DNA of 64,000 nucleotides from positions 1 through 64,000 of the forward strand of contig JADBKP010000007.1 of the NCBI GenBank assembly GCA_014896315.1. The letters run 5' to 3'. This DNA comes from Limnochordales bacterium (lineage in GTDB: Bacteria > Bacillota > Limnochordia > Limnochordales > DUMU01). Positions 1 through 60,962 of this stretch are shown in pieces (the stretch's first letter is position 1; the number at the start of each line of letters is the position of its first letter). Below the pieces are notes generated by a model, which saw only the letters and a list, made by a program, of their open reading frames with translations, did no database searches and was not told the DNA's origin. The position numbers and the translations under genes were made by a program.

Positions 1-794
1 ATGACAGCACGTTGTCTACCGGAGGCCGCTTTTACACCAAAATCCGGACTTGACCCACGATCCTGACGGAAGAGATAGTTACCCAATCCCTCCGGTCCAT
101 CCCACTCGATCCCAAAACTCCACGACGCCATCCAGACCCGAATCAGGTTGCCACCGTTATCCGCCAGACGCTTCAGCCAGATGTCATAATCTCCGCTCTT
201 CCGACTTCCGTACCAACCCATATTCTCGCCTATGCCCCAAAACGGCAGGTCGTTGTCATAAGCAAATCCCCGCGGATTCTCCTTGCTTACCCGGATAAAG
301 CCGGGGTCGTCGCTGGGAGTTACAACAAACCGCCCGCCGCTCTTGTGCGCCTCTCCGCTCGGCGTTTTCAGCGAAACGACATAGGTCCATTCGCCTACTT
401 CATCCGGCGTGAACCTGATTTGCCACTGACCAGGACCCGGATAAGAAAGCCACTCGATCTCACCGGGTGCACTCTGACGGGTGTAGGGGAGCATGAAAAA
501 ACCGGGCACACGGAGAACACGCCCGGTTGGTGAGGTGAATTGGGCCTGAAGATCGATCTGATCTGGATCAAACGGGTTGTCATACTCAGCCTCGAGATCA
601 ACCTTGAGTTGCAAAAGCGAGTAAAGAGGAAGTGTGCTGCTACTTGCAGTCACGGCCGTAATCTGTGGAAACGACGCTTCTGCAGCCTGGGTGCAGGCAG
701 CAGTCAGTAGCAAAGAGATGACCGCAGCAGCCAGGAAGCAAAGAACTAGACCCAGGAACCCATCGGGGAGAGACACACCTACCAGACGCTCCAT
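1..794 (-). CDS. DUF5060-type secreted glycoside hydrolase-like protein (3' end outside window)
   Basis: Manual minus-strand translation from ATG at 794: MERLVGVSLPDGFLGLVLCFLAAAVISLLLTAACTQA (signal-like), then YDNPFDPDQIDLQAQFTSPTGRVLRVPGFFMLPYTR, GKWQIRFTPDEVGEWTY-like segment and NPRGFAYDNDLPFWGIGENMGWYG, typical of DUF5060/collagenase-like glycosidases. Not in the ORF track because it runs off the edge. Confidence 0.7.
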   Translation of the reverse strand, partial: MERLVGVSLPDGFLGLVLCFLAAAVISLLLTAACTQAAEASFPQITAVTASSSTLPLYSLLQLKVDLEAEYDNPFDPDQIDLQAQFTSPTGRVLRVPGFFMLPYTRQSAPGEIEWLSYPGPGQWQIRFTPDEVGEWTYVVSLKTPSGEAHKSGGRFVVTPSDDPGFIRVSKENPRGFAYDNDLPFWGIGENMGWYGSRKSGDYDIWLKRLADNGGNLIRVWMASWSFGIEWDGPEGLGNYLFRQDRGSSPDFGVKAASGRQRAV

Positions 795-15174: not shown

Positions 15175-18100
15175 TCAGACTCGCAAGACAACCGCCGACG
15201 CCGACACCGCCGGTGTGCACTCGAGCGATTCGACACCCCTTGATCTGCATGAGGCCAACTGTTGGAGCAGGTGCTTAGCCAGGGAAACCCATTCTACCAA
15301 TCGAGCGGGTAGTTCCTCGGGCAGACACGTGGCCGACCTCGCTTCCACTTCAGCGATTTCGGGGTAGCCCACCAACTGTATTAGCCCCGCCCATGGGTAT
15401 CCTTGTCCTGCCAGGCGGGCCAGTGCGGTGCTCGGGTCGCAGCCCTCCGCAGCCATCAGGCATGCGGCCGCGTCGGCTATCAGTAGGCGCGCCCGTTCCT
15501 CCAGCGTCCCCCGACGACTGTTCTCAATGGTCCGGTCTATCTCAGCGACATACGACTGCCTCTTCTTGGCAACTGCCTCCACCGCACGCTGGGCCTCCCA
15601 AAGGTGTGAGCTGGTCACCGCTAAAGGTGGGCCGTTCAACAGCTCTTCCAGTTGACGCAGGCTCGTGATGGGGCAGAGACTCCCGTCTGCCGAAGGGGCA
15701 AACCAGCCCCTGACCTCCCCTGCACAGGCGCGGATTACACCCGGTCCCGCGAAGGCTTCTACGGGGGCGGGTACGGTTTCCAGTATCTCCGTCAGGAGTG
15801 GCTCGCCGTATGTCAGGAGACGCACTCGTCCGGGATGGGCATCGGCTATGTCGGGGTCGAAAGTCACACCATAGCTGCGACCGGCCCAGTCCAGTACCAG
15901 CGCACCGGGAATCTCGGGATGGGGGATAAAGCGGAAACCCAGGGAACTCGCACGCAAGGTGCGCTCCAGGTCAGCCAGGTTAAGAGGCGCCGGGGGAGGA
16001 CCCTCAGGTGGCGGGGTTCCTAAGGCCCATTCATCCAGGGATGGCAGCGCAGTCTGTGCCTCGATCTCCCGGCGGATCTCGGCCAGGGCCTCCGCCAATA
16101 CGGCCTCCCTTTCTTCATGAGGCGCAACCACCGCCTGCTCAATGGCTCTGGGAATCCGGGCCAGAATGGGAGACAGTTCGCCTATTACGGAGCGGAACCA
16201 GTGTATGCGGTCCGAAAGAGCCTTGTAAACTCTAGCCTCTACAGTTTCCTCACCGTGTGGCCCCAGCAAGAAGTAATGGCGGATCCAAACGTCCGGATAC
16301 ACCTGCCCGATGCGGTCAAAGCGGCCAATGCGCTGTTCGACTCGCATGGGATTCCAGGGCATGTCGTAGTTGATGAGGACACCGCACGTCTGCAGGTTGA
16401 GGCCCTCGCTGGCTGCCTCAGTGCAAAGCAGCACCCGGATTTCCCCGATCCGGAACGCATTCTTAACCTCTTCTTTGGTCACCCGTACCCATTCGCGCCC
16501 GTCCCACCGTTCGCCGCCACGACCCGAATAGCAGGCCAGGGAGCGCCCGTACACGCCCACCAGACGTTCACGGAGTGCGTCCATTGTGTCCGTGTATTGG
16601 GTAAACACCGCTACCGTCTCCCGCGGAGCAAGAACCTGTGCCAGTTCATCTACCAGGCGAGTAAACTTGGTATCCTCGCCCAGGCTCGCTACCCGCTCCA
16701 GGATCGCATCGAGCTCGCGGATCGCCTCGGCCATCAAACGGCGCAAGGATGGCGGAAGCCCTTGTCTAGTGGTCGTTTCGTACAACTCCTCCAGGGTATC
16801 ATCGTTCAGATCCGCCTCTTCCTCGTCCTCTTCCGTGAGGCCAAACAGGGGGCCGGCGCGATCGAGCACATAAGCGCGATACCTTTCCAGGCTACGGCGA
16901 AGGGCAGCAAAAGAAGATGTCAACCGTTTGCGGTAGACGGTCATAATGAATCCCAAGCCTTGGCGTTCATTTTCAAAGCGTTGGTAGAAACGGGATACAA
17001 ACCGCTCGACCCGATTGTAGAGATCCCATTCCTCGGGGGTCATGTTGATCCAGACAGGCTCAGGCCGACGCTCGGGAATACGTTCATGGAGGAGCCCTAT
17101 TTCCTGGTAGCGACGAAGCGTCTCGCGGGTGGCGCGGAACATCTTCCGACCGAGGGGGGATGCTTGACGACATAACTCTAGCAAGGCAGCCTGCTCTGAG
17201 GATGAGAGCCTCCTGATTTGGCGGGCAGACTGTTGTCCGGTGAATATCGAGTACACTCTCTGCCACGCAACCGGCCCCAGCTTTTCCCTCAAGGCCGGGG
17301 CGAGATCGTCGACCACTTCATCGCTAGTCGCGCGTGCCAGCCGCAGCAGGAGTTCCCAGTCTCCTTCCCCACCCCGCACTGCCCGCAACTCTTCGAGGAA
17401 ACGGAGAAAGCGCTCCTCGGAGGCAGCCCACACCGGAGGCAAGCCGAGTTGCCGGAGCAGGTCATACAGTTCCACCGGGTGCAACTGCATAGGGGTGGCG
17501 GTAAGCAGGAGCAACCCCTTCGTGCGAGAACACAGGCCCGGGCGACCGTTTTCCCCCTCCAGCAGAGCCAGCAGGCGGTTCGGGCGGTAGCGGTTGCGAG
17601 CGAGGATGTCGCGCCGCCTGGCGTGGTGAGCCTCGTCCACGATAACGAGGTCCCACGGGGTAGCCTGGAGGAGCTCTGCCGACCGCTGCGCACGCTTAGC
17701 CAGTTGGCTTGAGGCAATCATGACTGGGAAAGCATCCCAGGGATTAGTGTCAGGCGCGGTCACAGTGCGGAAATAGTCAATGAAGCTGTGACCGTCGTAC
17801 ACAGGCACGTTAAGGGCGAATTTCTCGTACAGCTCCTCCTGCCACTGCCGCTGCACACTCTTGGGTACCAGGATAAGGCAGCGGCGCACCGCACCCGAAA
17901 GAACCAGGGATCTTAAGATGAGCCCTGCTTCGACTGTCTTGCCAAGGCCTACTTCGTCGGCCAGGAGGAACCGCTCCGGAAACCGATGCACGACCTCCTT
18001 CACTACCCTGACCTGATGAGGCCACGGACGCACCCCGGAGGTGTGCACGCCCAGGTATTCCCCTCCCTGTAGGTAGGGGGCGTCGCGAAGGAAGGCAAAC

Positions 18101-18885
18101 AGTATTCGCTCCCGCTGGTCGACAGGGATGGATGGGGTGGTCACGGGCTCAATCTCAAGGGGATCGCGAAGAGGCGGGGCGGAGGGGGCGAGGGCCAGCA
18201 GACGGTCCCTAACCGCCTGGGGGATGGGAAGGGCACGCCAGCCTTGCTCACGCCCTTCCCAGAGGCGGCGTATACGCTCAACCACCTGAGCGAGGTAGGG
18301 CCGGGTGGCGTCCCAGGAAAAGTACACGGAGAATTGCTCGTAGTTTGCGCACCACCCCTGGGGGGTCTCGTTAACACTACCGGAGAACGCCACCTGGTGT
18401 CCACAGGCGTCGGTGAACACGCCTTCTTTGGGATGAAAGTAGTCGGCTGCCAGGGAAGCGGGCAGAGGACGGCCGTCTGGCCCTATGGGCAGCACCACGC
18501 GGATGGTCAGCCTGCCGGTCGCTATCATCCAGGCCAACACCTCCAGGCGGCGGCGGGCCTGGCCTGTAGGGTCAGCAGCCAGTTCTTCCAGGGCCTGTAA
18601 AAGCCTGGCTTCGAGGGCCGCCTGGAAGCCTTCCTCGCCGAACTCGATGGCCCGTACATCCTCCTCTGAAAGCTCAGCACCGACCAGGAGTCGCATTCGA
18701 CCACCCGCCCGTACCAGGTGGGCCACGCCCGCAGCCGCGATGGCCAAGGACCAAGAGGAGAAAAAGCCGGAGGTGCGATCGTAAGAAACAGAGCGGGAGA
18801 GGGCAGGCAGGTAAAAGTCCCGCAGGCGGTCGTCGGCAGGACCATAGGAGATCTTCCAGTTGACCTCGGTAAGGCAGCCGGCCAT
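15175..18885 (-). CDS. SNF2/DEAH-type helicase with N-terminal PLD-like domain
   Basis: N-term GPADDRLRDFYLPALSRSVSYDRTSGFFSSWSLAIAAAG, HPKEGVFTDACGHQVAFSGSVNETPQGW; helicase LLADEVGLGKTVEAGLILRSL, LVIVDEAHHARRR, LLLTATPMQL, NYDMPWNPMRVEQRIGRFDRIGQ. Confidence 0.95.
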   Translation of the reverse strand: MAGCLTEVNWKISYGPADDRLRDFYLPALSRSVSYDRTSGFFSSWSLAIAAAGVAHLVRAGGRMRLLVGAELSEEDVRAIEFGEEGFQAALEARLLQALEELAADPTGQARRRLEVLAWMIATGRLTIRVVLPIGPDGRPLPASLAADYFHPKEGVFTDACGHQVAFSGSVNETPQGWCANYEQFSVYFSWDATRPYLAQVVERIRRLWEGREQGWRALPIPQAVRDRLLALAPSAPPLRDPLEIEPVTTPSIPVDQRERILFAFLRDAPYLQGGEYLGVHTSGVRPWPHQVRVVKEVVHRFPERFLLADEVGLGKTVEAGLILRSLVLSGAVRRCLILVPKSVQRQWQEELYEKFALNVPVYDGHSFIDYFRTVTAPDTNPWDAFPVMIASSQLAKRAQRSAELLQATPWDLVIVDEAHHARRRDILARNRYRPNRLLALLEGENGRPGLCSRTKGLLLLTATPMQLHPVELYDLLRQLGLPPVWAASEERFLRFLEELRAVRGGEGDWELLLRLARATSDEVVDDLAPALREKLGPVAWQRVYSIFTGQQSARQIRRLSSSEQAALLELCRQASPLGRKMFRATRETLRRYQEIGLLHERIPERRPEPVWINMTPEEWDLYNRVERFVSRFYQRFENERQGLGFIMTVYRKRLTSSFAALRRSLERYRAYVLDRAGPLFGLTEEDEEEADLNDDTLEELYETTTRQGLPPSLRRLMAEAIRELDAILERVASLGEDTKFTRLVDELAQVLAPRETVAVFTQYTDTMDALRERLVGVYGRSLACYSGRGGERWDGREWVRVTKEEVKNAFRIGEIRVLLCTEAASEGLNLQTCGVLINYDMPWNPMRVEQRIGRFDRIGQVYPDVWIRHYFLLGPHGEETVEARVYKALSDRIHWFRSVIGELSPILARIPRAIEQAVVAPHEEREAVLAEALAEIRREIEAQTALPSLDEWALGTPPPEGPPPAPLNLADLERTLRASSLGFRFIPHPEIPGALVLDWAGRSYGVTFDPDIADAHPGRVRLLTYGEPLLTEILETVPAPVEAFAGPGVIRACAGEVRGWFAPSADGSLCPITSLRQLEELLNGPPLAVTSSHLWEAQRAVEAVAKKRQSYVAEIDRTIENSRRGTLEERARLLIADAAACLMAAEGCDPSTALARLAGQGYPWAGLIQLVGYPEIAEVEARSATCLPEELPARLVEWVSLAKHLLQQLASCRSRGVESLECTPAVSASAVVLRV

Positions 18886-18888
18886 GGC

Positions 18889-21795
18889 CTACGCTTCCTC
18901 CTCAGTCCCATCCCCAAGCTCATCTTGGTCCAGAGGCATTGGCAATTGCTCCGGCAAGCCTTCCTGCTCGCTTGCTGGTTCCATTTCCGGGAACGCCGCC
19001 TGGCGCAGCCGCTCCAAAGCCTCTGCTTCGGGCCGGAGGTAGCCGCCCTCCCGGTTGCGAACTGCCGGCACGGCACGTATCGCCCCCTGCAGCAGACCAC
19101 GAAACGCTGGGTCATTAGCGTAGCCACGATTCTCCAGAAACCGAGCAGCTGCCGCTGTACCTTCTTCGGCCACGAGCAGGAGCGCCGTGTGGAGCACGTC
19201 AAGGAGCACGGAGAAGGTGCCGTCGGGGTCGAGACGGCCGCGAGTGCGGCGAACGGCTGGCTCCTGCAAGGTAACAGTGTCGCCAGACTTGGTGAGCACA
19301 CGGTGGGTACGGATAAGATCCGCCTCCAGATCACATCCCAGAGCGAATGACAGCTTGCGCGCCTCGTCGGCAGGGAAGGTCGCGGCCCTGAAGGCATCCC
19401 AAGCCAGGAGCCAGAAGTCGGTAACCGGGTCAAAGCGCACCGTCTTGCCCAAGAGTTTCTGCTTACGCAAAGCCGCCACTTCTTCGCGGGCGACCTCCAG
19501 AGCAGTTTCCGGCTCAAGCCGGAGCGGCTCACCGGTCCGCGGATCGGCCTCCCCCGAGAGCACTGGCCAATTCCGCGACAGCACCCCAAGCACCGGACCG
19601 TAGGTAGCCAGGTATAGGTCTACACCGCTGATCCCTGCCTTTTCATACTCCTGCGCCCGCTCGCGGGCGGTTCGGCGAACCTCGGCCTTAAGCTCATCCC
19701 ACCAGGCAGGCTCGCCTGAAGTCCGGCGCTTGCGGCAGGTGAGGAGGATGGTGGACTGGGCCGCGTTCTTTTTCGCCTGGTGCAGGGAATGTTCGCTTTC
19801 CGTCCGTACCGGCCAGGACGACTCTACTGTGAAGCCTGCCTCTATGAGGGCACGCCCCAGGGCGTTCCAGGCGTCCGTGCGCTTGTGAGTGAACATCACG
19901 GTTAGCACCCCATCCTCCCGCAACACGCGGTGCATCTCCCGGAAGCAGGCCAGCATCTTGCGCTCATAGTCCTTCTCGGCGAGCTCTCTGGGGCCAGGAT
20001 GTCTCATCCCATGGAAGCGAGCCGGGTTGGCGACCGCTTCCGAGTCCTTGTCGGTGAGGAGGGTGGTGAACACCCCAGGGTATAGGTCTCCCACCGTCCG
20101 TTTCATCCACACGTAGAAGAAGTCGGACAGCTCGGCGTACATAACGTTGTCGTAATACGGCGGGTCCACCACTATGGCATGGACGCTTCCAGAAGGGACT
20201 TCCGCCAGGTTCGCCGCGTCCCCGTACCTGACCGTGACCGGAGGCTGGGGACCAGCGACCGGGAATAGGCTCCGAGTCGACTGGCCGGCCAAGTGCGCTA
20301 TCTCTCTGTATGCATCAACCACTTGATCTAGAGCCCATGGCAACAGCATGCGGGCTGCATCAAACTCCCCGAAGCTCCACTTGAAGGAGAAGTCATGGCG
20401 GTCGAAGGTGTTGCGCACCTTGTAACGTGTGGAGTCCCAACTCGCCAAGTTGGAGTTGTAGTCAGCACACTTGTCGAGCACCAGTCCCAGATAGGTCAGC
20501 ACCGCCCGAGCGCGGTCTTCGGGGAGAGTCGCCCGCACCTGAGCTGCCACTTCGTGGTACGTTTCCAGGTACGTGCATAGAGCAAGGAGTTGACGCGGTG
20601 AGAAGAGGTCGGCCCAGGTCCGCATACCGTACTGCAGAGGCCGTGCGTCGGCAGCCGTATCTGGGAACACTTCGCGCGGTACCAAACCTCTGGCCTCCCA
20701 TGCCGGCAGCCGGCGGGCAAGCTCTTCCGCGGCCCGCTCCGCAGCCTCAATATCTTCTTGCGTAGGAAGCCGGAAGTCCTTGCCCTGCGGAGTCTGCACG
20801 GCCACGGCATAAAGCTGTGCACCCATGCGGCCAGCCTGGGCTTCCGACTTGATGTAATCGTCGGTAATGGTTTCGCTCGTCCAGGGTGAGATAGCGGTCC
20901 CGCGGGCCACCGTGCCCCGCTCGGGATGGGCGGCACGCGCCTCACTACCCCGCACGACCTCGAACCGGCACTCGGACATGACAGGATCAGCCACTAGCCT
21001 TACGGCAACTACGGGTTCGTCCTTACTCCGAAGCCACCAATTGGGAGAAAGTGGAACAGGCTTGCCCGTGTACGGACAGGTTACGGTGCGGGCCCAAATA
21101 TAAGCAAAAACCCGTTCGTATCCTGTCACGGGGTAGAACTCTGCTAGGCATTCCGCTACGCGCTCGGCCCACATGGCGCCGTAGCGCTGCAGGTCACCTA
21201 TAAGCTCTTCTCCGAAACGCGCCGGGTAGTCGAGCGTGGCGTGCAGGATCACGTGGGCGATGGGATTCAGTTCGTTGGCGAAGGTGGCGAAGCCGCACCG
21301 TAGCGCTTCGAAAGGTATGGATCCTCCACCGGCCATCGGGTCGGAGATCAGCAGGTCATGCGTTCCCCATGCAACATCAATGAGCCGGCGAATAGCAGCA
21401 ATTTGTTCCCCGGACGGCGTATGCGTGAACGCGCGACTGTAACCGTAACCCCCACCGGGGAGGCGCTTGCCCGTTTCCCGGGCGACTTCGATGGCTCTCC
21501 GGGCTGCGACCGGATCCCCACGGATGCCGAGCAGGTCATGGAGGAACCACTGGCGGTAGGCCTGCTCGTCGGGGAAGAGCCGCTTTAGGTCTTCGGGCCA
21601 GTCGGGACTCCACGCGGGAAGCACGCTGCCCAGAACCGCGGCCCGGGAAACCACGAGTGGCCGCCGAGCCCACCAGACGTGAAGGCGGTTCGGAGGTGGA
21701 TGCTGGCCCGTACTGTTCTCTCGGCGCGACTCTATCCCGAGCTGTGCAGCCGGAAGCCAGGTGGTGATCAGAGGATTGTGCATGCTGGTCTTCAC
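18889..21795 (-). CDS. DUF1156 domain-containing DNA (adenine-type) methyltransferase
   Basis: N-term RRENSTGQHPPPNRLHVWWARRPLVVSRAAVLGSVLP, ISDPMAGGGSIPFEALRCGFATFANELNPIAHVI, VDPPYYDNVMYAELSDFFYVWMKR (DPPY). Confidence 0.95.
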   Translation of the reverse strand: MKTSMHNPLITTWLPAAQLGIESRRENSTGQHPPPNRLHVWWARRPLVVSRAAVLGSVLPAWSPDWPEDLKRLFPDEQAYRQWFLHDLLGIRGDPVAARRAIEVARETGKRLPGGGYGYSRAFTHTPSGEQIAAIRRLIDVAWGTHDLLISDPMAGGGSIPFEALRCGFATFANELNPIAHVILHATLDYPARFGEELIGDLQRYGAMWAERVAECLAEFYPVTGYERVFAYIWARTVTCPYTGKPVPLSPNWWLRSKDEPVVAVRLVADPVMSECRFEVVRGSEARAAHPERGTVARGTAISPWTSETITDDYIKSEAQAGRMGAQLYAVAVQTPQGKDFRLPTQEDIEAAERAAEELARRLPAWEARGLVPREVFPDTAADARPLQYGMRTWADLFSPRQLLALCTYLETYHEVAAQVRATLPEDRARAVLTYLGLVLDKCADYNSNLASWDSTRYKVRNTFDRHDFSFKWSFGEFDAARMLLPWALDQVVDAYREIAHLAGQSTRSLFPVAGPQPPVTVRYGDAANLAEVPSGSVHAIVVDPPYYDNVMYAELSDFFYVWMKRTVGDLYPGVFTTLLTDKDSEAVANPARFHGMRHPGPRELAEKDYERKMLACFREMHRVLREDGVLTVMFTHKRTDAWNALGRALIEAGFTVESSWPVRTESEHSLHQAKKNAAQSTILLTCRKRRTSGEPAWWDELKAEVRRTARERAQEYEKAGISGVDLYLATYGPVLGVLSRNWPVLSGEADPRTGEPLRLEPETALEVAREEVAALRKQKLLGKTVRFDPVTDFWLLAWDAFRAATFPADEARKLSFALGCDLEADLIRTHRVLTKSGDTVTLQEPAVRRTRGRLDPDGTFSVLLDVLHTALLLVAEEGTAAAARFLENRGYANDPAFRGLLQGAIRAVPAVRNREGGYLRPEAEALERLRQAAFPEMEPASEQEGLPEQLPMPLDQDELGDGTEEEA

Positions 21796-22211
21796 TCTCC
21801 CCCTAGGAGCACCCTCAACGCACGCCGCGCGCTGCGTGTCGAGACTGCTTTGCTGAACCAGTAGTAGGCCTCCTCGTCCGGCATGTTGCGAATGGCTTCG
21901 GCGATACGTTCCATGCGAGACGTCTTCCGCAGGGGTTTGAGGGCCAGGAGGGTTAGAGCGACCCGAACTCCCTGATCCTCCCTAAGCTCAAAGGGCTCTC
22001 GGCGGTCCCGGTGTAGATCTGAGGGCCGGTAGCCGCTCTTTCGCAAGGCCTCTACTACCTGGGTAAGGCTGGCCTGGAAGGGAGCATCCCACGCGCGGAC
22101 CAGCGGCCGCTCCTCGGGGTCCGCACCGCTGTTGATACGCTGGCGGAGGTCGACCCCGTATGAACCGTCAGGGCGCGGGAGCACGTAAAGGAGAAACTGC
22201 CGGAGATTCAC
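21792..22211 (-). CDS. Small conserved-looking protein within the DUF499-DUF1156 cassette
   Basis: 139-aa ORF overlapping both neighbours by 4 nt (start 22211 vs stop 22208; stop 21792 vs start 21795). Confidence 0.7.
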   Translation of the reverse strand: MNLRQFLLYVLPRPDGSYGVDLRQRINSGADPEERPLVRAWDAPFQASLTQVVEALRKSGYRPSDLHRDRREPFELREDQGVRVALTLLALKPLRKTSRMERIAEAIRNMPDEEAYYWFSKAVSTRSARRALRVLLGGE

Positions 22212-25200
22212 GATTCTTGCACCTCCCCGGCGGAGGGTTCCGCCGTGATGCGTACGCGGCCGGGGATAAGGTGTGCGAGGGCATCGCGCACCTGATTGAT
22301 GCCCTCAGGAGTCAGCGGATCACGCGCGCGCCAGTCCAGCCGAGCGCGGACCTGAGCGGCAGACGCCCGCTCCAGCACGGAAACAACGGCGTCCTTCAAA
22401 TCCTTGTACCTTTCCCAGGGCCCACGAAACTCCAGGCGCATGCTCCCCCCCTCGAATTCCCCCGTGGCGGACACCTCCACGCGGAACTGGCCGGGCCCGA
22501 GCTGGGGGACGGCCAACCCCAGGCTGCGGAGCTCTCGCACGCCCTCGGGGCCGTCGCCGTCCACGGTAAGCTGAAGCACGGCAAGCGCGGCTACGTGGCG
22601 ATCGTGCATGCGGTCGATAATTGCCTGTAACGCCTGCGCCGCTGTGCCCGATGCTTCGAACGTTTCTTCAGGAGCTGGAGGCGGTGGCGGCTGGCACCGG
22701 CAACGGGCGGCGGGTTCCCCGCATACGGGACAGCGTTCCTCTTGAGGTTCGGCACCAGCTATGGGTATCCCGCGCTCCCGGGCCAACTCGGGTTCCATCA
22801 GCATAGCCTCGCCGTCCAGGCGCACTAGCGGAACTGGCGACTCGCCCCCGTATCCCCTACCCTCACTCGGATCGTAGTACACCCACAGACCCCGCCGGAT
22901 TCCCTGCAGGATTCCCTCCCGCAGGGGCCTGGGGTCGAGCAAAATCCGCAGGCCTCTGCGCATGGCGAAAGCCCGCATGGTTTCGGCCACTGACATCTCC
23001 CGGGAACCGTGAGTCCACGCCCATCGTTTGATTAGCTCAGGGGCGATAGGGCCGTCATCACCCGTGTAGACTTTCTCCAATCGCCGTAACGCGTCCAGGA
23101 TGACCCTGCTCTGATCGCGCTTCACTTCCCCCTGGTCCTGGGCGGGAAGGGCTTCGCGTGCCAGTCCGGCGGCGGAGCGGAGGGCGTCCGCCGACGGATA
23201 GTAGAGAAACCGGTAGGCCCGGTGGATGGCCACCCGCAGCTGAAGTTCACTTTCATCTTTCCGTTCCTGAAGACGTTTCCGTTGTTCGGGCGTAAGAAGC
23301 CTTTGCCTCTCGGGATTATCCGCCAAGCGGCGGACGGCCTCTGCTTCCCGAGCCTTGATAATCATCTCCTCCTTCTGCGCTTCATCGCATACCAGAAAGA
23401 TGACGTTGTTTTGAAACGTGCGTGGCTCACCGACAGTACCCTTCTCTTGGAAGAGACGCTGCACCAGTAGCGGCGGAGTCTCTTCATCCTCCCGAGCTGC
23501 AGCAGCATCGTAGTGTATAATAGCGAGCTTTGGCTTGCCGGCATCATCCGGAATCTCGGCGGGTTCGGCAGGGAAACGACAAACCTCGAAAATGCCCGAT
23601 TGCCAGATAGCCCTAAGCCGTTCGTCCAGGACCTGCTTGCCCTTGGTCACCCCGACATACTGCATCTCATCGACAACCATCTTGTTTAGGGAAGGCTCGG
23701 TAAGGAACCGCCAGCGCTCTCCTTCATAATCCAAGTACCAGCAGCGCCGCTCGAGTTCTTTGAGCGCCTGGGAGAGCAGGGCCGGGTCGTCACCCGGCGC
23801 CAGGCAGGCCAGGGCAACCTCCTCCGTCCGCGCCCCTACCACCGCACCCCGCGTCAGACTGTGCAGAAAGATGGCGGTAGCAGCTCGCTTGGCAAACGGC
23901 CGCCGCCCCGAGGCCTGCCAGGCACGGTCGATGTCGCTGGCGAATCCGGGGTGTTCGGCCACGGGACTGGCGATGTCCGCGTGCACTACCTCCTTGTAGC
24001 GAGGTCGGTCGAGGCGGCTTGTGAGATCCTCCACGATGGGATCCCAGGCCAGGTCCAGGTGGTGCGGGTGGATGAGCCAGGCGTCGGCCGGACGGATCTC
24101 CCACAACCGGCGGATAGCTCGTGCCAGCAGGCGCAGCGCCCCGCGGGTACGCTGAAAGTTAGGTATGGTCGATACCTTGCGGTTCAGTGTCACCAGGAGT
24201 TCGGGGTGAAAGGGATAGCTCCGCTCGAGGAACCGCAGGTAGTCGGGGGTCAGGGCGCTTGCGGGAAGCTCTGCACCCTGCCGTTGCGCTTCTTCAAAGT
24301 AGGCGCGGTAGGCAGCGGCAATTTCAGGAATACAACTGGTGTCCACCCGCTCGAAGAGCTGACGGACCAGAATGCTAGCAATTTCCTCCTCGCCTGAGGT
24401 GGGCGTGAGGATACGTTCGATCCGACCCGAGATGGCCTTAAGCTCTGCGATAAGCTGGGTGAGCACCTGCCCCAGCTCCTCGGTCTCCTCGCCGAAGGCA
24501 TCGGAGGCTTCCGCCAGGGTGAGTACGCAGACCGCCCGTGGTGAAGCCGCCACCGATTCCAGCAGGGTCTTGAGAAACGGAGCCAGGTGGCCGGCCAGAG
24601 CTTCCTTGCCCCGCCAGGTACGCAGGGTGCGCAGGTACGGGGCCAGTTCGTCGAGCAGGATGACCACGGGCCCCTCGCCGATGATCTCGCGCCAGGGGAT
24701 AGCACCCGGCACCCGGGCCTCGTCGCTTCTCCGCACCATCTCGTACGCGACTCGGCCGCCCAGTTGATAGGCGATTTCGCCCCAGGGGGTATACGTCACC
24801 GTGCCGTCAGGATGGCGGATTCCATCCACCGGGTTCAAATCGTCCCCGACCACGACTGCCACACGGGCCCGCTCGCGGAGCACCCCGGCGTTCCCCCCGA
24901 CATAATGCGCCAGCACCTCCGCAGGAAGCCGACCGCAAGCGGCGTGGTAGAGTGCGATCAAGCTGTGAGTCTTACCACCGCCAAATCCCGTTTCCAGGCG
25001 CAGAACCGGCGCTGCCATGGGGTTTGTGCCCCACACGCGGCCTAGCGCCTCAGTGAGTAACGTGCGCAGTCCTTCGGTGGGGTGCGTCCGGTTGAAGAAA
25101 GCTATCGGGTCAGCATACACCGGGTCGGCAGTCCCCCGGACGACGTCCCCCAGCCGGGCCGCGAAGGTTGCTTCGTGCAACTCTCCCGACAGTACCTCCG

Positions 25201-25273
25201 GCCGCGGAACGCACGCTTCAAATACCGTTTTCACCTCGGCGTCCCCCATTCGCAATCCACCTGTCCTGCTCAT
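22208..25273 (-). CDS. DUF499 domain-containing P-loop ATPase
   Basis: LETGFGGGKTHSLIALYHAA (Walker A), GPVVILLDELAPYLRTL (Walker B), Zn-ribbon-like ERCPVCGEPAARCRC. ORF opens at 25408, but MSRTGGLRMGDAEVKTVFEACVPRPEVLSGEL at 25273 is a more likely start. Confidence 0.92.
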   Translation of the reverse strand: MSRTGGLRMGDAEVKTVFEACVPRPEVLSGELHEATFAARLGDVVRGTADPVYADPIAFFNRTHPTEGLRTLLTEALGRVWGTNPMAAPVLRLETGFGGGKTHSLIALYHAACGRLPAEVLAHYVGGNAGVLRERARVAVVVGDDLNPVDGIRHPDGTVTYTPWGEIAYQLGGRVAYEMVRRSDEARVPGAIPWREIIGEGPVVILLDELAPYLRTLRTWRGKEALAGHLAPFLKTLLESVAASPRAVCVLTLAEASDAFGEETEELGQVLTQLIAELKAISGRIERILTPTSGEEEIASILVRQLFERVDTSCIPEIAAAYRAYFEEAQRQGAELPASALTPDYLRFLERSYPFHPELLVTLNRKVSTIPNFQRTRGALRLLARAIRRLWEIRPADAWLIHPHHLDLAWDPIVEDLTSRLDRPRYKEVVHADIASPVAEHPGFASDIDRAWQASGRRPFAKRAATAIFLHSLTRGAVVGARTEEVALACLAPGDDPALLSQALKELERRCWYLDYEGERWRFLTEPSLNKMVVDEMQYVGVTKGKQVLDERLRAIWQSGIFEVCRFPAEPAEIPDDAGKPKLAIIHYDAAAAREDEETPPLLVQRLFQEKGTVGEPRTFQNNVIFLVCDEAQKEEMIIKAREAEAVRRLADNPERQRLLTPEQRKRLQERKDESELQLRVAIHRAYRFLYYPSADALRSAAGLAREALPAQDQGEVKRDQSRVILDALRRLEKVYTGDDGPIAPELIKRWAWTHGSREMSVAETMRAFAMRRGLRILLDPRPLREGILQGIRRGLWVYYDPSEGRGYGGESPVPLVRLDGEAMLMEPELARERGIPIAGAEPQEERCPVCGEPAARCRCQPPPPPAPEETFEASGTAAQALQAIIDRMHDRHVAALAVLQLTVDGDGPEGVRELRSLGLAVPQLGPGQFRVEVSATGEFEGGSMRLEFRGPWERYKDLKDAVVSVLERASAAQVRARLDWRARDPLTPEGINQVRDALAHLIPGRVRITAEPSAGEVQES

Positions 25274-25436
25274 CCTACCGCCGGGAGACAGTTCGATCGC
25301 CGGCCCAGCTATTCCTTCCCGGCAACCTGCATACGCCCATGGAAAGGCCTTCGCTTGCGCCCCGCCGTCAAAAAAAATCGGGATGGGATTTTGCCTCTTC
25401 TTTCCCATCCGCTCTTCCGAAAGCCTGCATAAATCC

Positions 25437-52325: not shown

Positions 52326-52741
52326 CGGGGTTGCGGGAGGCAGTAGTTACGCCGGAAGTAAAATGCGGTTTCTACCGCCAGGCTGCCAGGCCCTTGGCCG
52401 GTGTCTACAAGCAACCTGTCGTCGCCTCTCACAGGCTCTTTTGATTTGGCACATGCTTCCAGTCTAGAACGATCGGAGGTTTGCCCCAAGTACTTGACAC
52501 TCAAGCTGTTTCCACTTCTTCTTCCTCATTCAGCTGGTCGCGTGGTATACTTGCAGTCGACCGAAGCGATTTACGAACGCCTCTGGCATATTATGGTACG
52601 ACCCACCGGGCGGTTCCCCGGATTCATGCAGGTTTCGGGCTCTTTGAGGCTGCAGTCGACCCCCCGGGGTCTAGACGGCAACCGCGGGTCGACGGCAGAA
52701 TGAACGATCGCCAGCCCGGCCTACCTGGGCCTTTGACCTTG

Positions 52742-55700
52742 GTTCCAATCGAACCATTGTGGGATTGAAACCAAGGGATGTTCTACTACAAACCTGGCAG
52801 TCAAACTCGTTCCAATCGAACCATTGTGGGATTGAAACAAGAACGCCCAAGCGAAGCGCCTTTATCGATCTCCTGTTCCAATCGAACCATTGTGGGATTG
52901 AAACAGGCGACGGTGCTGCCGCCCGAGGCGGACGAGCTAGTTCCAATCGAACCATTGTGGGATTGAAACTGGGAGGTGGCAGAGAGTGATCCTATTGCAG
53001 CGCCGTTCCAATCGAACCATTGTGGGATTGAAACGCGCGATAACGGATGTCGACCACGCCCGTCTCGAGCGTTCCAATCGAACCATTGTGGGATTGAAAC
53101 GGCGTTCGCCAACGCTGCCCTGGCCGATCTGAAAGAGTTCCAATCGAACCATTGTGGGATTGAAACTGATGAGCTTCATCGGGGCACTCGCATCCAGAGC
53201 ACCGTTCCAATCGAACCATTGTGGGATTGAAACCCAGCCGACGGCAGCCAGGATGCTGCCGAGCTCCTGGTTCCAATCGAACCATTGTGGGATTGAAACC
53301 AGAGCCAGGGGTGGTCATGCTCGCCAAACGCCCGGTTCCAATCGAACCATTGTGGGATTGAAACCGTAGGAAAGCTGAAGCCAGACTCGTGCGCTACGAA
53401 CGTTCCAATCGAACCATTGTGGGATTGAAACAAGACTCCGGACCCTGGGTTACGAACCCCATCGAAAGTTCCAATCGAACCATTGTGGGATTGAAACTTC
53501 TGCAAGCGTGTAACGGGCGAGCGGAACTTCAAGTTCCAATCGAACCATTGTGGGATTGAAACGGAGCGGGGCGTCATCCTCGAGGGCTTGGACGAGAAAG
53601 TTCCAATCGAACCATTGTGGGATTGAAACAGAAGACGATCAAGACTCAGGTGCAGGCGATGGCCCGTTCCAATCGAACCATTGTGGGATTGAAACCTACA
53701 TCCGACACATGATAGAACGTTTGAATCAATAGTTCCAATCGAACCATTGTGGGATTGAAACCCCTGAGCGGCCAGTATATTTTGTAAGCCACCTCTAGTT
53801 CCAATCGAACCATTGTGGGATTGAAACTGTTCCGCGCGCGCCGAGCCGCCCAAGTGCTAGCACGTTCCAATCGAACCATTGTGGGATTGAAACGGCTTCA
53901 CGTAGCATGATCTGGATGTCAGCGGGCAATGTTCCAATCGAACCATTGTGGGATTGAAACTTCTTCCGCACGAAGGCAGAACTAAGAGCCAATCGGTTCC
54001 AATCGAACCATTGTGGGATTGAAACCGTGGGGAAGCGAATCCGGCAGCTTAGGATAGCCGCGTTCCAATCGAACCATTGTGGGATTGAAACTCAACATTG
54101 CGGCCCAGAAAAACAATCAACATTGCAAGTTCCAATCGAACCATTGTGGGATTGAAACTCGTTCGCCCACGTCCAGCCACGTTTCTTCGTGCCCGTTCCA
54201 ATCGAACCATTGTGGGATTGAAACGATCACACAGCCTTCTAGCTGCAACTCCTTGGGCCGTTCCAATCGAACCATTGTGGGATTGAAACGACGACGTAAT
54301 GCAGGTATCGCGGGTTATCTCGGAGTTCCAATCGAACCATTGTGGGATTGAAACGAGGTTGAACTTTCCCCTTATGCCTTCCGGGAAATCGTTCCAATCG
54401 AACCATTGTGGGATTGAAACGATTTCTCCTTCTGGTTAGCGGCTCAGGAACGTCTGGGTTCCAATCGAACCATTGTGGGATTGAAACAGGGTTCAGGCCG
54501 CAGATAACTGACGCATCGCTGCGTTCCAATCGAACCATTGTGGGATTGAAACTTCGTCACGGTCCATCTTTGCCGTCTCGGCCAGAACGAGTTCCAATCG
54601 AACCATTGTGGGATTGAAACAGGCGCGGAGCTGATCGGGCCGGACCTCAATTATCGGTTCCAATCGAACCATTGTGGGATTGAAACTCCTCCTCCTGTAG
54701 AACTCGGCCTTGCTAACGACCAGTTCCAATCGAACCATTGTGGGATTGAAACTGAAAGGGGTGGGCAGAATGGCTGAGCAGGTGAACAGTTCCAATCGAA
54801 CCATTGTGGGATTGAAACGGGAGTGGTTCAAAAAGGTTTACGACCCCGAATCGGGTTCCAATCGAACCATTGTGGGATTGAAACGTCCAAGTAAGCAGGG
54901 CGACAGGTTTGTCACCGTGTTCCAATCGAACCATTGTGGGATTGAAACGTTGGGGATCAGTTACCCCTGACCCGGCCACAGATGTTCCAATCGAACCATT
55001 GTGGGATTGAAACTTACGTGAAGAGTGGCTGCTGTTCTCCGGACGTCCTTGTTCCAATCGAACCATTGTGGGATTGAAACTTTTCTTCCAGAATGGAACA
55101 CATTAATCTTGGGGTGTTCCAATCGAACCATTGTGGGATTGAAACGTAGAAGACGCTAGTCTCGACCGGGCGCTTCTTAGCCGTTCCAATCGAACCATTG
55201 TGGGATTGAAACGCATTCAAACACAGGCTTGTGAATGTGCAGCTTGAAGTTCCAATCGAACCATTGTGGGATTGAAACTGCTCAGCCCGAGCCCGAGATA
55301 GGTTGCAACCTCGGGTTCCAATCGAACCATTGTGGGATTGAAACCGCGGCTGGGGTTTTGTGTTTCGGAAGGAGGCGGCGTTCCAATCGAACCATTGTGG
55401 GATTGAAACATGGGCCAGCGCCGGTGAACAAAGTGCCGGTCGGTTGGTTCCAATCGAACCATTGTGGGATTGAAACGATCAGGGCTCAGGCCAAGCCCTT
55501 TCCGCAAAATGAGTTCCAATCGAACCATTGTGGGATTGAAACTTGTACTGTCGGACGATCTGCTGCGTTTCGCGCAGAGTTCCAATCGAACCATTGTGGG
55601 ATTGAAACCAACGTACCCGAAGCGGAACGAATCAAGCGAATCACGTTCCAATCGGACCATTGTGGGATTGAAACCAAGGCGTTCCCGAACGAAACTGACG

Positions 55701-58700
55701 TCACCGTCATTGTTCCAATCGAACCATTGTGGGATTGAAACCTCGCGTGCGGGCATAAAGTAGAGCAGGTCAGTCCAGTTCCAATCGAACCATTGTGGGA
55801 TTGAAACTTCGTCCCGGCTAATTCCTTCGCGCTCACACACAATTGTTCCAATCGAACCATTGTGGGATTGAAACCTGGCGTTCGGCTTCCCGGCGAATTT
55901 CATCGTCTGGGTTCCAATCGAACCATTGTGGGATTGAAACTACGGGACATGGTACGACATCTACAAGGAGGTCGAAGTTCCAATCGAACCATTGTGGGAT
56001 TGAAACTGGGGCGTTTGCGCCGCGACACGAGCGAATTGTTCAGTTCCAATCGAACCATTGTGGGATTGAAACCGACTTTATCTCTACCCCGATTGTGCTT
56101 TGGCCAAGTTCCAATCGAACCATTGTGGGATTGAAACCCCGGCACGGGCTCGCTCCAGGCCAGGAAGCGCCTGTTCCAATCGAACCATTGTGGGATTGAA
56201 ACGGATTCGCTGCTGCTGTACTGCAGCTCCTGATCCTTGTTCCAATCGAACCATTGTGGGATTGAAACTCTCGACGCCGATGGCCGCCTTGTGGCCGGAG
56301 ATGGTTCCAATCGAACCATTGTGGGGTTGAAACCAATTCTTCAGCATCAACCGCGAAGCTGGCTACATCGTTCCAATCGAACCATTGTGGGATTGAAACG
56401 GGTGTCGTAAACGGGCCGGGCTCTCTGGCCATCCCAGTTCCAATCGAACCATTGTGGGATTGAAACTACCGCCGTGATCCATCCCCGCCAGTCAATCTGA
56501 AGTTCCAATCGAACCATTCTGGGATTGAAACAGCGCTTTTGCCAACTTGTGCTGATACAAGGAGAACGTTCCAATCGAACCATTGTGGGATTGAAACGGC
56601 CGCGGAACTGGAATGGTGTACGGGCCGCGAACTCGTTCCAATCGAACCATTGTGGGATTGAAACCGGACATAGCGTCCGTAAAGGCAGTTCTCACAGCCT
56701 TGTTCCAATCGAACCATTGTGGGATTGAAACCAAAAGTTCACGGTAAAGCTCTTCACCCAAAAATTGTTCCAATCGAACCATTGTGGGATTGAAACCCAG
56801 AAGGCCAAGGCGGTTAACTTCGGCTTCCTCTAGTTCCAATCGAACCATTGTGGGATTGAAACCTCTGGAAGCGGCTTTCTGGCACATAAATAAACTAGTT
56901 CCAATCGAACCATTGTGGGATTGAAACAAGGGTAATCCCCTTGCCTTGAAAAAACGCCTCCAGTTCCAATCGAACCATTGTGGGATTGAAACCGGTCGGG
57001 CTGTGGTAATCGCTTCGCTCATGCGCCCCGTTCCAATCGAACCATTGTGGGATTGAAACTGCAATGCTGAGCGCCACCTTGACGGTGGGCGTCTTCGTTC
57101 CAATCGAACCATTGTGGGATTGAAACGCTGTAGGCTGTGACGTTTTGGGCAACGGTGCTCTTGTTCCAATCGAACCATTGTGGGATTGAAACCGGATTTG
57201 ACTGACAGAGAGTGCACAGTTTCTGTACAGGTTCCAATCGAACCATTGTGGGATTGAAACGAGGCAGTGCGGTTGGCCTTCACGAGATCAAACTCGTTCC
57301 AATCGAACCATTGTGGGATTGAAACCGTCGACGTTGCCAGTCAGTTCGTCCAGGGATACACGTTCCAATCGAACCATTGTGGGATTGAAACCTCGGCTTC
57401 GGCGCGCATAAGGCCGCGGGCCGCGAGTTCCAATCGAACCATTGTGGGATTGAAACACGTCAAGAGGCTTGGAGGAGTAACCCTGCCAGGAAGTTCCAAT
57501 CGAACCATTGTGGGATTGAAACGAAGGCGGCCCGGCCCCGGTGCGCGCCTACTGGGTGGTTCCAATCGAACCATTGTGGGATTGAAACGCGGTCCAGCTC
57601 GGCATGGCGGGCGGCCTTCTCCTGTTCCAATCGAACCATTGTGGGATTGAAACAAGGGTAATCCCCTTGCCTTGAAAAAACGCCTCCAGTTCCAATCGAA
57701 CCATTGTGGGATTGAAACTCCTGTAGGCTTCCAGAACCGCCGCTGCGGTTTCGTCGTTCCAATCGAACCATTGTGGGATTGAAACGGGCGAGTGTTGGAC
57801 TAATTGCGCTACCACTTGACGTGTTCCAATCGAACCATTGTGGGATTGAAACTTAGCAACCCATTAGCAACACGCATAAAACAAGCGGGTTCCAATCGAA
57901 CCATTGTGGGATTGAAACTCGCGCAGGTCTTCCGCCCGACGTCCGCTTCCACGAGTTCCAATCGAACCATTGTGGGATTGAAACTCCTCTTTGCTGAGCC
58001 GATCTGGTGCCCGAGCTGCCGTTCCAATCGAACCATTGTGGGATTGAAACGTGTGTCGGCCAGTACGGCGCCCCGGCCGAAGGAGCGTTCCAATCGAACC
58101 ATTGTGGGATTGAAACTGAGATGTACGACCTGCTGGTGTCGGCAATGGGCAAGCTCCAATCGAACCATTGTGGGATTGAAACAAACCTAGCCCGCGTAAG
58201 CGGGCGATGGTCGGCGGAGTTCCAATCGAACCATTGTGGGATTGAAACTTCCTGTATCCCATCATTGACGTTTTTGAAATCACCCGTTCCAATCGAACCA
58301 TTGTGGGATTGAAACGGCTGCCCCGGGGGGTCCCCTGCCCGGCTGGCTGCCGTTCCAATCGAACCATTGTAGGATTGAAACCGATCTCGAGGTTGTTTTG
58401 CTCAATGAGCTTCTCGGGTTCCAATCGAACCATTGTGGGATTGAAACGGACTGCGCGGCCTGCGTGATCGGTCCGAGGTCCTTGTTCCAATCGAACCATT
58501 GTGGGATTGAAACTCGAGATGAAACGGGCTCGGGGCGGCCGAGTGAGCGGTTCCAATCGAACCATTGTGGGATTGAAACTCGATTGCACACAGGTCGGTT
58601 TTGTAGACAGCGCGGGTTCCAATCGAACCATTGTGGGATTGAAACCGCTGTAAACCTCGGCTCCAGGCTCTCCATCGGCAAGTTCCAATCGAACCATTGT

Positions 58701-58909
58701 GGGATTGAAACAGAGATAGGGCATCGGAACCTCGCCTACGCCGTCCAGTTCCAATCGAGCCATTGTGGGATTGAAACTCGAAGCATTTCTCACACGGTGG
58801 TTTGAGCATCACAAGTTCCAATCGAACCATTGTGGGATTGAAACGTTCGCATGGGGATGAAATCAAACTGCCCCCCGGCGTTCCAATCGAACCATTGTGG
58901 GGTTGAAGC
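52742..58909 (+). CRISPR. CRISPR array, 94 clear repeats of GTTCCAATCGAACCATTGTGGGATTGAAAC (30 bp), spacers about 34-38 nt
   Basis: Repeats counted by eye at 66-bp average period; 3' end ATTGAAAC and degeneracy at the right end indicate transcription left to right. Confidence 0.99.
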
Positions 58910-58952
58910 CCCGTCATGGGTTTCTTTAGACCGACGGCGCGGCGCGAGTGTC

Positions 58953-59047
58953 ATTCCGATCGGACAATCGTGGGATTGAAGTCGGCAAACGTCGATCATT
59001 TCCAGCTGGAAGAGTAGCGGTCCACTCAATCAGTGTGGGATTCAAAC
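58953..59047 (+). repeat. Two decayed CRISPR repeats at the trailer end
   Basis: ATTCCGATCGGACAATCGTGGGATTGAAGT (58953-58982) and ...TGTGGGATTCAAAC ending at 59047. Confidence 0.7.
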
Positions 59048-59080
59048 ACAATGGCACCTGGTCCAGTTCCCCAAGTCCGG

Positions 59081-60939
59081 CGGCACTTTGACACCCGTAA
59101 TGCAAAGAAATGGCTATACAAGGGCGTTTTGGGCGCGCGAGGCCTCCGTTTTGGCATCACGGTCGTCCTTCGCCAGGGGCTCGATGCGTGGTGGAATGCG
59201 GTATCCCAGGGCCTGGAAGATGGTAACCGCCTCCGGGGAGGCCTCGGAGCGCAGGCGATACATCGCTCCCTTGATCTCGATATAGGCTGACTTGATCCGA
59301 GAGAGGTGCTTGAGCGCCTCCGCCGCCGTCATCTTGATCCCTTTCGCATGAAGCTTCTTCTCCAGATAGCGCTCCAGGAGGTGGGCCAGCACGCACACAT
59401 GCACATGCGCCCGGATACGACGCTCCCGCCAGTGATACACGGGATTGATCTCTTCCAAGCTCTTCAGACTCCGGAAGGAACGCTCAATCGTTTGGAGATC
59501 CCGGTAGGCTCTGGCCACCTCCGCGCTGTCAAGCTGCTCGTAGCTGGTTCGGATCACGTACTTGCCGTCATAACGGGCTTCTTCCCGGATTCGGGCCTCG
59601 TCCAAACAGATACGGCCGTCATCGAGACGCATGAGATACCGGCCCTTACCCGGGTGGGAGTAGAGCCTGGCGGCCTCCCGTGACCAGGGATCGAGACCTT
59701 CCAGCTCGGCCCGAAGCTCCTCCACGATGGACTCCCGGGTCTGGCGGTCGTATTCAGCCTCGATGGGATTGAAGCAGACAATATAGCGGCGGTCCTCGAC
59801 CCGGACCTCTTTCACCCTGAGGTTCTCGGCCACTTCGCGATAGCGACCGGGCCAGGCCAAGACGATGTCTCGGACCTCTCCGGCCCGTCGCAACGGGCAG
59901 CCAACGATGTAGTGGATGCCGGCTTCCCGCAGTAGCTCCAGGTTCTCTTCGCTCAGCATCCCGCGATCACCCACGAAGATACAGTGGGTGACATGGAACC
60001 GCCGCTGCAGGGCATTAACCATTTTCTCCACGGTCGTTACGTCAGCGGTGGCGCCGGGTTCCACCTCATGAGCGAAGGGCAATCCCTCCCGGCTGTTGGC
60101 AAGAGTGAGGAGGAATTCTAACTCACCGTCCCGACCGTACTGGATCAGTTCTGACTCCCTTCCGTAGCTACGGATGAGAGTCGCATCGTAAAAGACGAGG
60201 CTCACGTCCAAAGAGAAGAGATCTCGCATACGCAGGAAGAGCCCTTCTTCGATCGGTTCTTTGTACTCGTGAAGGACGTCCAGCGCGCGGTAAAGGTGGT
60301 GAAGGCTGAGGCTCTTGGCTTCCGGGAAGTCAGCGTCATTGACAAGCCAATCATACGTACCACGATCACTGAAGGGATCAAGCAAGCGGTTGAAGACCAT
60401 ACCCCTGATCGCGGCTTCCACATCGAAGGTGAAGGCCCGGTCTCTGATCTGTCGCCGGATTTCGTCTCCGATGCCGAGTTCATCCCAAAGCCGTTGCAGT
60501 ACCACTAAGGCTCCGTACTCCCGGGTATGCTTGAGTATCAGGTCTTTTTCCAGGTCCAGCACCTGCAGCTTGTGGGTCTGACTGGCCAGGGCGGCGACCA
60601 TCTTGTCCACTCGATCCCGATCCATCTCATCCTCTCGGCCAACCGTGCAGATCACCTTCTGCCTGACCTTGCCGTTGCGTCGCTCATTCTCTACCAGCTG
60701 CCAATAGACGTACTCCTTACCGGACTGACGGACGATCTTACGGCGCAGGAACACCCGGCGTCACCTCCTTCCACTACGAACCATATCACGCATACCATCC
60801 AAGCGCAACATATTATCTTCACGCCAATAACCATGGCTTTGGCACTACCCCGTCACACGCGCGATCACCCGGGATATGCATTAAGCAGCGCTTCTTCTCC
60901 GGACACGCGCTCAAATGGGCATTTCACTGTCAAACTCCC
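59081..60939. mobile_element. IS1634-family insertion sequence
   Basis: Transposase 59114..60754; imperfect terminal inverted repeats GGCACTTTGACA..AATGC (left) and GGGAGTTTGACA..AATGC (right, reverse complement); flanking GTCCGG at 59075-59080 and 60940-60945. Confidence 0.8.
59114..60754 (-). CDS. IS1634 family transposase
   Basis: VSLVFYDATLIRSYG, PFAHEVEPGATADVTTVEKMVNAL, CIFVGDRGMLSEENLELLREAGIHYIVG, DGKYVIRTSYEQLDSAEVARAYRDLQTIERSFRSLKS, IRAHVHVCVLAHLLERYLEKKL. Confidence 0.93.
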   Translation of the reverse strand: MFLRRKIVRQSGKEYVYWQLVENERRNGKVRQKVICTVGREDEMDRDRVDKMVAALASQTHKLQVLDLEKDLILKHTREYGALVVLQRLWDELGIGDEIRRQIRDRAFTFDVEAAIRGMVFNRLLDPFSDRGTYDWLVNDADFPEAKSLSLHHLYRALDVLHEYKEPIEEGLFLRMRDLFSLDVSLVFYDATLIRSYGRESELIQYGRDGELEFLLTLANSREGLPFAHEVEPGATADVTTVEKMVNALQRRFHVTHCIFVGDRGMLSEENLELLREAGIHYIVGCPLRRAGEVRDIVLAWPGRYREVAENLRVKEVRVEDRRYIVCFNPIEAEYDRQTRESIVEELRAELEGLDPWSREAARLYSHPGKGRYLMRLDDGRICLDEARIREEARYDGKYVIRTSYEQLDSAEVARAYRDLQTIERSFRSLKSLEEINPVYHWRERRIRAHVHVCVLAHLLERYLEKKLHAKGIKMTAAEALKHLSRIKSAYIEIKGAMYRLRSEASPEAVTIFQALGYRIPPRIEPLAKDDRDAKTEASRAQNALV

Positions 60940-60962
60940 GTCCGGGTGAAGGACCGCCAGGC

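Follow-up and report, generated by a model that had tools for sequence, protein, structure and literature searches.

A 94-repeat CRISPR array without neighbouring cas genes in a Limnochordales bacterium is very likely served in trans by a type I-B system on another contig

We studied a large CRISPR (clustered regularly interspaced short palindromic repeats) array in a Limnochordales bacterium (assembly GCA_014896315.1, 2.59 Mb in 20 contigs). The array lies in the window, that is, the whole stretch of 64,000 nucleotides analysed, which forms the start of contig C18 (JADBKP010000007.1, 176,960 bp). The original prediction had reported that no cas genes accompany the array in the window and that there must be, or have been, a trans-acting cas locus. 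Such a locus was found: contig C2 carries a complete type I-B operon. We consider it very likely that the window array is a large but ordinary remote array, which the C2 system reads and updates in trans. The C2 operon, together with the shared repeat and leader, removes the puzzle of a big array without cas genes, and an orphan or cas-less array was rejected on finding this operon.

In the window array, unique spacers of similar length alternate with near-identical repeats; a leader marks one end and decayed repeats the other (Table 1). The predicted count of 94 clear repeats and 93 spacers at a spacing of about 66 bp, plus two decayed repeats, was recovered. The repeat is 30 nt long and its 3′ end is ATTGAAAC; 87 of the 94 clear units are exact, six carry one mismatch and one carries two. 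Spacer lengths range from 34 to 38 nt (46 spacers of 36 nt, 23 of 35, 21 of 37, two of 38 and one of 34), and one spacer occurs twice, at 56928 and 57654, which leaves 92 distinct spacers. Repeats 1-44 on the leader side are regular units with no mismatch, and all eight variant repeats (8/8) fall within units 45-95 (chance about 0.005, for a boundary picked post hoc), indicating that new units most likely enter at the left and that the right end is old.

The operon on C2 has the gene order cas8b-7-5-3-4-1-2-6 and occupies about 136.96-128.92 kb on the minus strand. PADLOC models matched its effector genes (Cas8b, 3.9e-132; Cas7b, 2.8e-71; Cas5, 6.6e-24; Cas3b, 1e-137), and the adaptation and processing genes were identified as Cas1b (TIGR03641, 7.6e-130), Cas4b (1.7e-46), Cas2 (PF09827, 9.9e-22) and Cas6b (9.2e-57). 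No NCBIfam model matched the C2 Cas8. All eight cas genes of known type I-B systems are present, including Cas1b of TIGR03641, a TNEAP-type Cas7/Cst2 with Cas5, and Cas8b. The assignment to type I-B is based on cas8b with cas7, cas5 and cas3, on cas1b, cas2, cas4 and cas6 in the same operon, and on the array on C2 (118.36-120.43 kb, 8.5 kb from the operon), whose leader and, but for one base, repeat are shared by the window array. Genome-wide Pfam searches, in which cas3 and cas8 were not included, located cas1, cas6 and RAMP genes on C2, C20 and C1 only, and the two Cas1 genes of the genome are on C2 and C20. These searches found no cas1, cas6 or RAMP gene on the 177 kb of C18, in agreement with the predicted absence of cas genes near the array, so that the cas operon directly beyond the window that would have refuted the original prediction was, taken literally, not found. 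The C2 operon is at least ~130 kb away from the window array under any possible contig join.

We further found that the window array belongs to a family of four, the other three of which carry its repeat or variants of one to two bases. A genome-wide pattern search allowing up to three mismatches returned 264 matches, and the arrays comprise 94 repeats on C18, 75 on C1 and C8 (63 + 12), 64 on C6 and 32 on C2, about 265 in total. The C1 and C8 parts are separated by a copy of the same IS1634 element that flanks the window array, its two ends terminating C1 and opening C8. Joining both flanks over the 6-bp target duplication GTCAGG yields a 36-nt spacer, indicating one 75-repeat array that was interrupted by insertion. 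A single base, at position 16, separates the C2 repeat (G) from the window repeat (T); most of the C6 array carries one further difference, a final T. In C6 (16757-20953; L016) the repeat form shifts from the T-form at the old end, where three exact copies remain, to the G-form and then to a G-form with a final T, which records how the leader-proximal repeat mutated. In C2 (118488-119210; L021/L011), a duplicated spacer and chimeric spacers (118847/119044 and 118978/119178) were observed, reflecting either unit-to-unit recombination or misassembly.

The spacers link these arrays to each other. Spacers 4, 58 and 91 of the window array match or overlap spacers of C6, C8 and C1, respectively (Table 1), indicating that the arrays sampled the same elements, and that C18 and C6 did so recently. 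The spacer search against phages and plasmids, which the original prediction had put forward, gave no exact protospacer. Spacer 62 matched a phage polymerase (33/34) and spacer 81 transposase genes of this genome (~87%), so that the spacers may derive from mobile elements. The plasmid search gave no exact target, and nearly all of its matches were repeat-like and lay on haloarchaeal plasmids, where they most likely represent the CRISPR loci of those plasmids. Deriving a protospacer-adjacent motif (PAM) from the overlapping spacers was impossible, as the overlaps leave the 5′ side uncovered.

All four arrays also share a leader, with an extended -10-like element of the form TGnTATACT (TGnTATAMT if the leader of genome G170, described below, is included). 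A single half-site of the form TGCAGTCGAYC abuts this element in each leader, and closer to the array lies an inverted repeat with the consensus TGCMGTCGAYC..GRTCGACKGCA, whose end is 43-44 nt away from repeat 1. Searched genome-wide, this inverted repeat gave exactly four copies, one per leader, against zero for a control pattern. An operator of the cas promoter was rejected, as the half-site pattern GCMGTCGAYC was not found upstream of cas8b. A role as RNA hairpin or attenuator was not supported either: the 189-nt leader RNA folded no better than its shuffles (z 0.16), and covariation of the inverted-repeat pairs was not above shuffled controls. A double-stranded protein site is preferred on these grounds.

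To place the system among its relatives, we surveyed 398 genomes from the phylum and a further 26 from a related class. The closest homologues of the C2 Cas1 were 71-75% identical and were found in G170, G292, G466 and G467; that of G185 was 72% identical over a partial match. G467 and G101 (Thermosediminibacteraceae metagenome-assembled genome, same phylum) share an identical 2567-bp cas contig. Among the genomes listed for the same order, no comparable Cas1 was seen, which suggests horizontal transfer. In G170, G292, G466, G101 and G185, near-identical repeats were found, with the inverted repeat again 44 nt away. The array-carrying contigs of G292 and G466 encode the full set of I-B proteins (8/8), aligned at 53-73% identity; in G185, seven of the eight were recovered, and Cas4 was not found in the stretch. 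G101 carries a Cas4-1-2 set at 65-74% together with arrays of the window-type repeat, and its second Cas1 (48%) adjoins an array with a different repeat. An I-B operon beside the array on the Thermosediminibacteraceae contig L034 was ruled out, because the genes there are not cas genes, except a Cmr4 fragment; the real Cas4-1-2-6 set of that genome sits on a different contig.

In G170, Cas1, Cas2, Cas4 and Cas6 aligned at 53-75% and Cas3 at 29% only, and Cas5, Cas7 and Cas8 gave no alignment in the 40 kb fetched. Its array of 153 repeats (contig C1 of that genome, 1.380-1.396 Mb; L085) lies beside Cas1/2/4/6 and a different effector set, and both the repeat and the inverted repeat are kept. 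The inverted repeat thus tracks Cas1/2/4/6 and is probably an adaptation signal. Its constant distance to the repeat, its occurrence in leaders only and its association with adaptation rather than effector genes suggest that it most likely helps the integrase to locate repeat 1. Beyond this, we tentatively propose, at a little less than even confidence, that it is a clade-specific, helix-phased site where the I-B Cas1-Cas2-Cas4 integrase, or a protein partnering it, docks. Three genomes with a Cas1 of 54-56% identity have a weaker inverted repeat at 54 nt from repeat 1, a distance larger by 10 bp; these genomes are non-independent and the arms match at 6-7 of 11 positions, so that the shift by one helical turn is a hint only. 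As one half-site touches the -10-like element, the motif may also have a transcription-factor role.

By analogy with the I-B family, Cas1-Cas2-Cas4 encoded on C2 would insert new spacers at the left end of the window array, beside the leader. The array would be transcribed, and Cas6 (Cas6b) would cut the transcript at the repeats to yield CRISPR RNAs (crRNAs) with the 8-nt 5′ handle ATTGAAAC, with which Cas8b-Cas7-Cas5 and Cas3 would target phages and other mobile DNA. In this way, a single operon would serve all four arrays, recognised through the shared repeat and the leader with its inverted repeat at a fixed position. Some observations weigh against this account. The cas-proximal repeat is one base, and most of the C6 repeats one more, away from the window repeat, so that equal processing of all variants is an assumption. 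In addition, the type III-D and III-F-like gene sets of the genome might share these crRNAs. Finally, neither 50,697 phage records nor six scans of IMG/VR with short patterns yielded a true protospacer, which makes the PAM unreadable.

We also considered whether the array was built by the I-B system and is now archival, retained for interference only and no longer updated. The array is far from the cas genes, its inverted repeat has one more inner mismatch than those of C1, C2 and C6, and leader activity cannot be revealed by sequence alone. However, the leader is intact, the first 44 repeats are perfect, and spacer 4 equals the first and newest C6 spacer, indicating a recent invader sampled by both arrays. 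Moreover, according to a survey, acquisition frequencies are similar among arrays with identical repeats, whatever their distance from cas (PMC12814883). An archival array is therefore unlikely. A distortion of the repeat number by assembly collapse or expansion seems the least probable alternative. One spacer is doubled, and the C2 array of the same assembly contains the chimeric spacers mentioned above, but the 44 leader-side units are perfect and regular, and with 92 of 93 spacers distinct, expansion would need invented spacers, so that only a loss of units is plausible.

Use of the array mainly by a type III complex instead of the I-B system is only slightly less improbable than such a distortion. 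Both type III gene sets are present in the genome. On C20 (89.4-99.2 kb; L023:4403-14206) there is a III-D set with a Csx21-like gene, and on C1 (209.0-212.9 kb; L053:9040-12934) there are III-F-like Cas7, Cas5 and Cas10 genes, around which no cas1, cas6 or array was found in the 15 kb fetched and which may borrow I-B crRNAs. Type III complexes can load crRNAs produced by the Cas6 of another system. Furthermore, the repeats of I-B and III-B largely overlap (PMC12814883). On the other hand, other genomes keep the repeat and the leader with Cas1/2/4/6 as one I-B set. On C20, a 7-8-repeat array with its own 37-nt repeat, unrelated to that of the window array, is surrounded by Cas6, Cas1 and Cas2 (L012:8962-12395), 34 kb off the III-D genes. 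An additional use by type III is possible, and an exclusive one is unlikely. Taken together, a remote array belonging to the C2 I-B system is the best explanation.

Table 1. Coordinates of the array, its leader, selected spacers and the flanking element in the window
Feature	Position	Strand	Remark
Leader, ~200 bp aligned	52512..52741	+	by alignment; common to 4/4 arrays of the repeat family
Extended -10-like element TGGTATACT	52543..52551	+	predicted promoter function
Lone half-site TGCAGTCGACC	52552..52562	+	directly 3′ of -10-like element, 190 nt before repeat 1
Inverted repeat TGCAGTCGACC...GGTCGACGGCA, 47 bp	52651..52697	.	44 nt between its end and repeat 1
CRISPR array, 94 repeats of GTTCCAATCGAACCATTGTGGGATTGAAAC and 93 spacers	52742..58909	+	leader end left
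Spacer 4	52970..53004	+	all 35 nt identical to first spacer of C6 (36 nt there)
Spacer 58	56532..56567	+	28/29 overlap, opposite strand, with spacer of C1/C8 array (C8)
Spacer 62	56797..56832	+	phage family A DNA polymerase (polymerase I) motif QKAKAVNFGFL; 33/34 to Streptomyces phage
Spacer 81	58051..58086	+	~87% identical to transposase genes on C14 and C6, putative IS256 family
Spacer 91	58712..58747	+	23/24 overlap, opposite strand, with C1 spacer
Two decayed repeats, trailer end	58953-58982 (7 mismatches) and ~59020-59047	+	
IS1634-family element	59081..60939	-	outside array

As for the flanks, the original prediction was right about the insertion sequence on the right, which is the IS1634-family element of Table 1. 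On the left it had named a pseudogene fragment, but the array adjoins the intact leader (about 52510-52741), which had been overlooked. The IS1634 element is bordered by the 6-bp target duplication GTCCGG (59075-59080 and 60940-60945) and was inserted 28 bp past the last decayed repeat, indicating that it did not truncate the array. Contig C8 (L015:1-6360) has IS1634 ends at both boundaries, and its bases 883-937 match window positions 1-55 on the opposite strand, a repeated sequence common to C8 and the left end of C18. Elsewhere in the window (15175-25408, minus strand), probable genes of an Hma defence system stand in a row: HmaA SNF2 helicase (1.5e-64, with other SNF2 models scoring better), HmaB methylase (2.3e-89) and HmaC ATPase (2.5e-103). 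On C2, a large SNF2/DUF3670 helicase gene, with DpdE and ZorD as top PADLOC models, and a 327-aa gene lie between the array and the operon (124.3-128.9 kb; L011:4255-8933).

Phased leader motifs were reportedly described by Santiago-Frangos in 2021. Such motifs are known (cited in PMC12259127), and the element described here resembles them as an inverted repeat that precedes repeat 1 by a conserved distance and follows the adaptation genes, whereas its subtype and sequence are different and its binding by Cas1-Cas2 is putative. In a report on the I-B system of Clostridioides difficile, 12 arrays with two conserved inverted repeat motifs in their leaders are described (PMC8406132). Many arrays per I-B system and conserved inverted repeats in every leader are common to both, with the consensus and the fixed 43-44-nt spacing given above being those of the present genome. 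The 30-nt repeat ending in ATTGAAAC, the 34-38-nt spacers and the several arrays per operon are likewise usual for type I-B. In most types including I-B, arrays further from cas tend to be shorter (PMC12814883), whereas here the most repeats (94) are found in a distant array and the fewest (32) in the cas-proximal one.

Several arrays per cas operon are common and inverted repeats in I-B leaders have been reported before. The phased inverted repeat of the leader stands out as the single less usual feature and is of modest interest. Altogether, the apparent anomaly of a huge array without cas genes is removed, and the genome offers a clean case of a single I-B operon with four scattered arrays, a distant one being the largest. 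The inverted repeat, with its constant place in leaders across genera and its link to the adaptation genes, is a candidate cis-signal for spacer insertion by I-B Cas1-Cas2.

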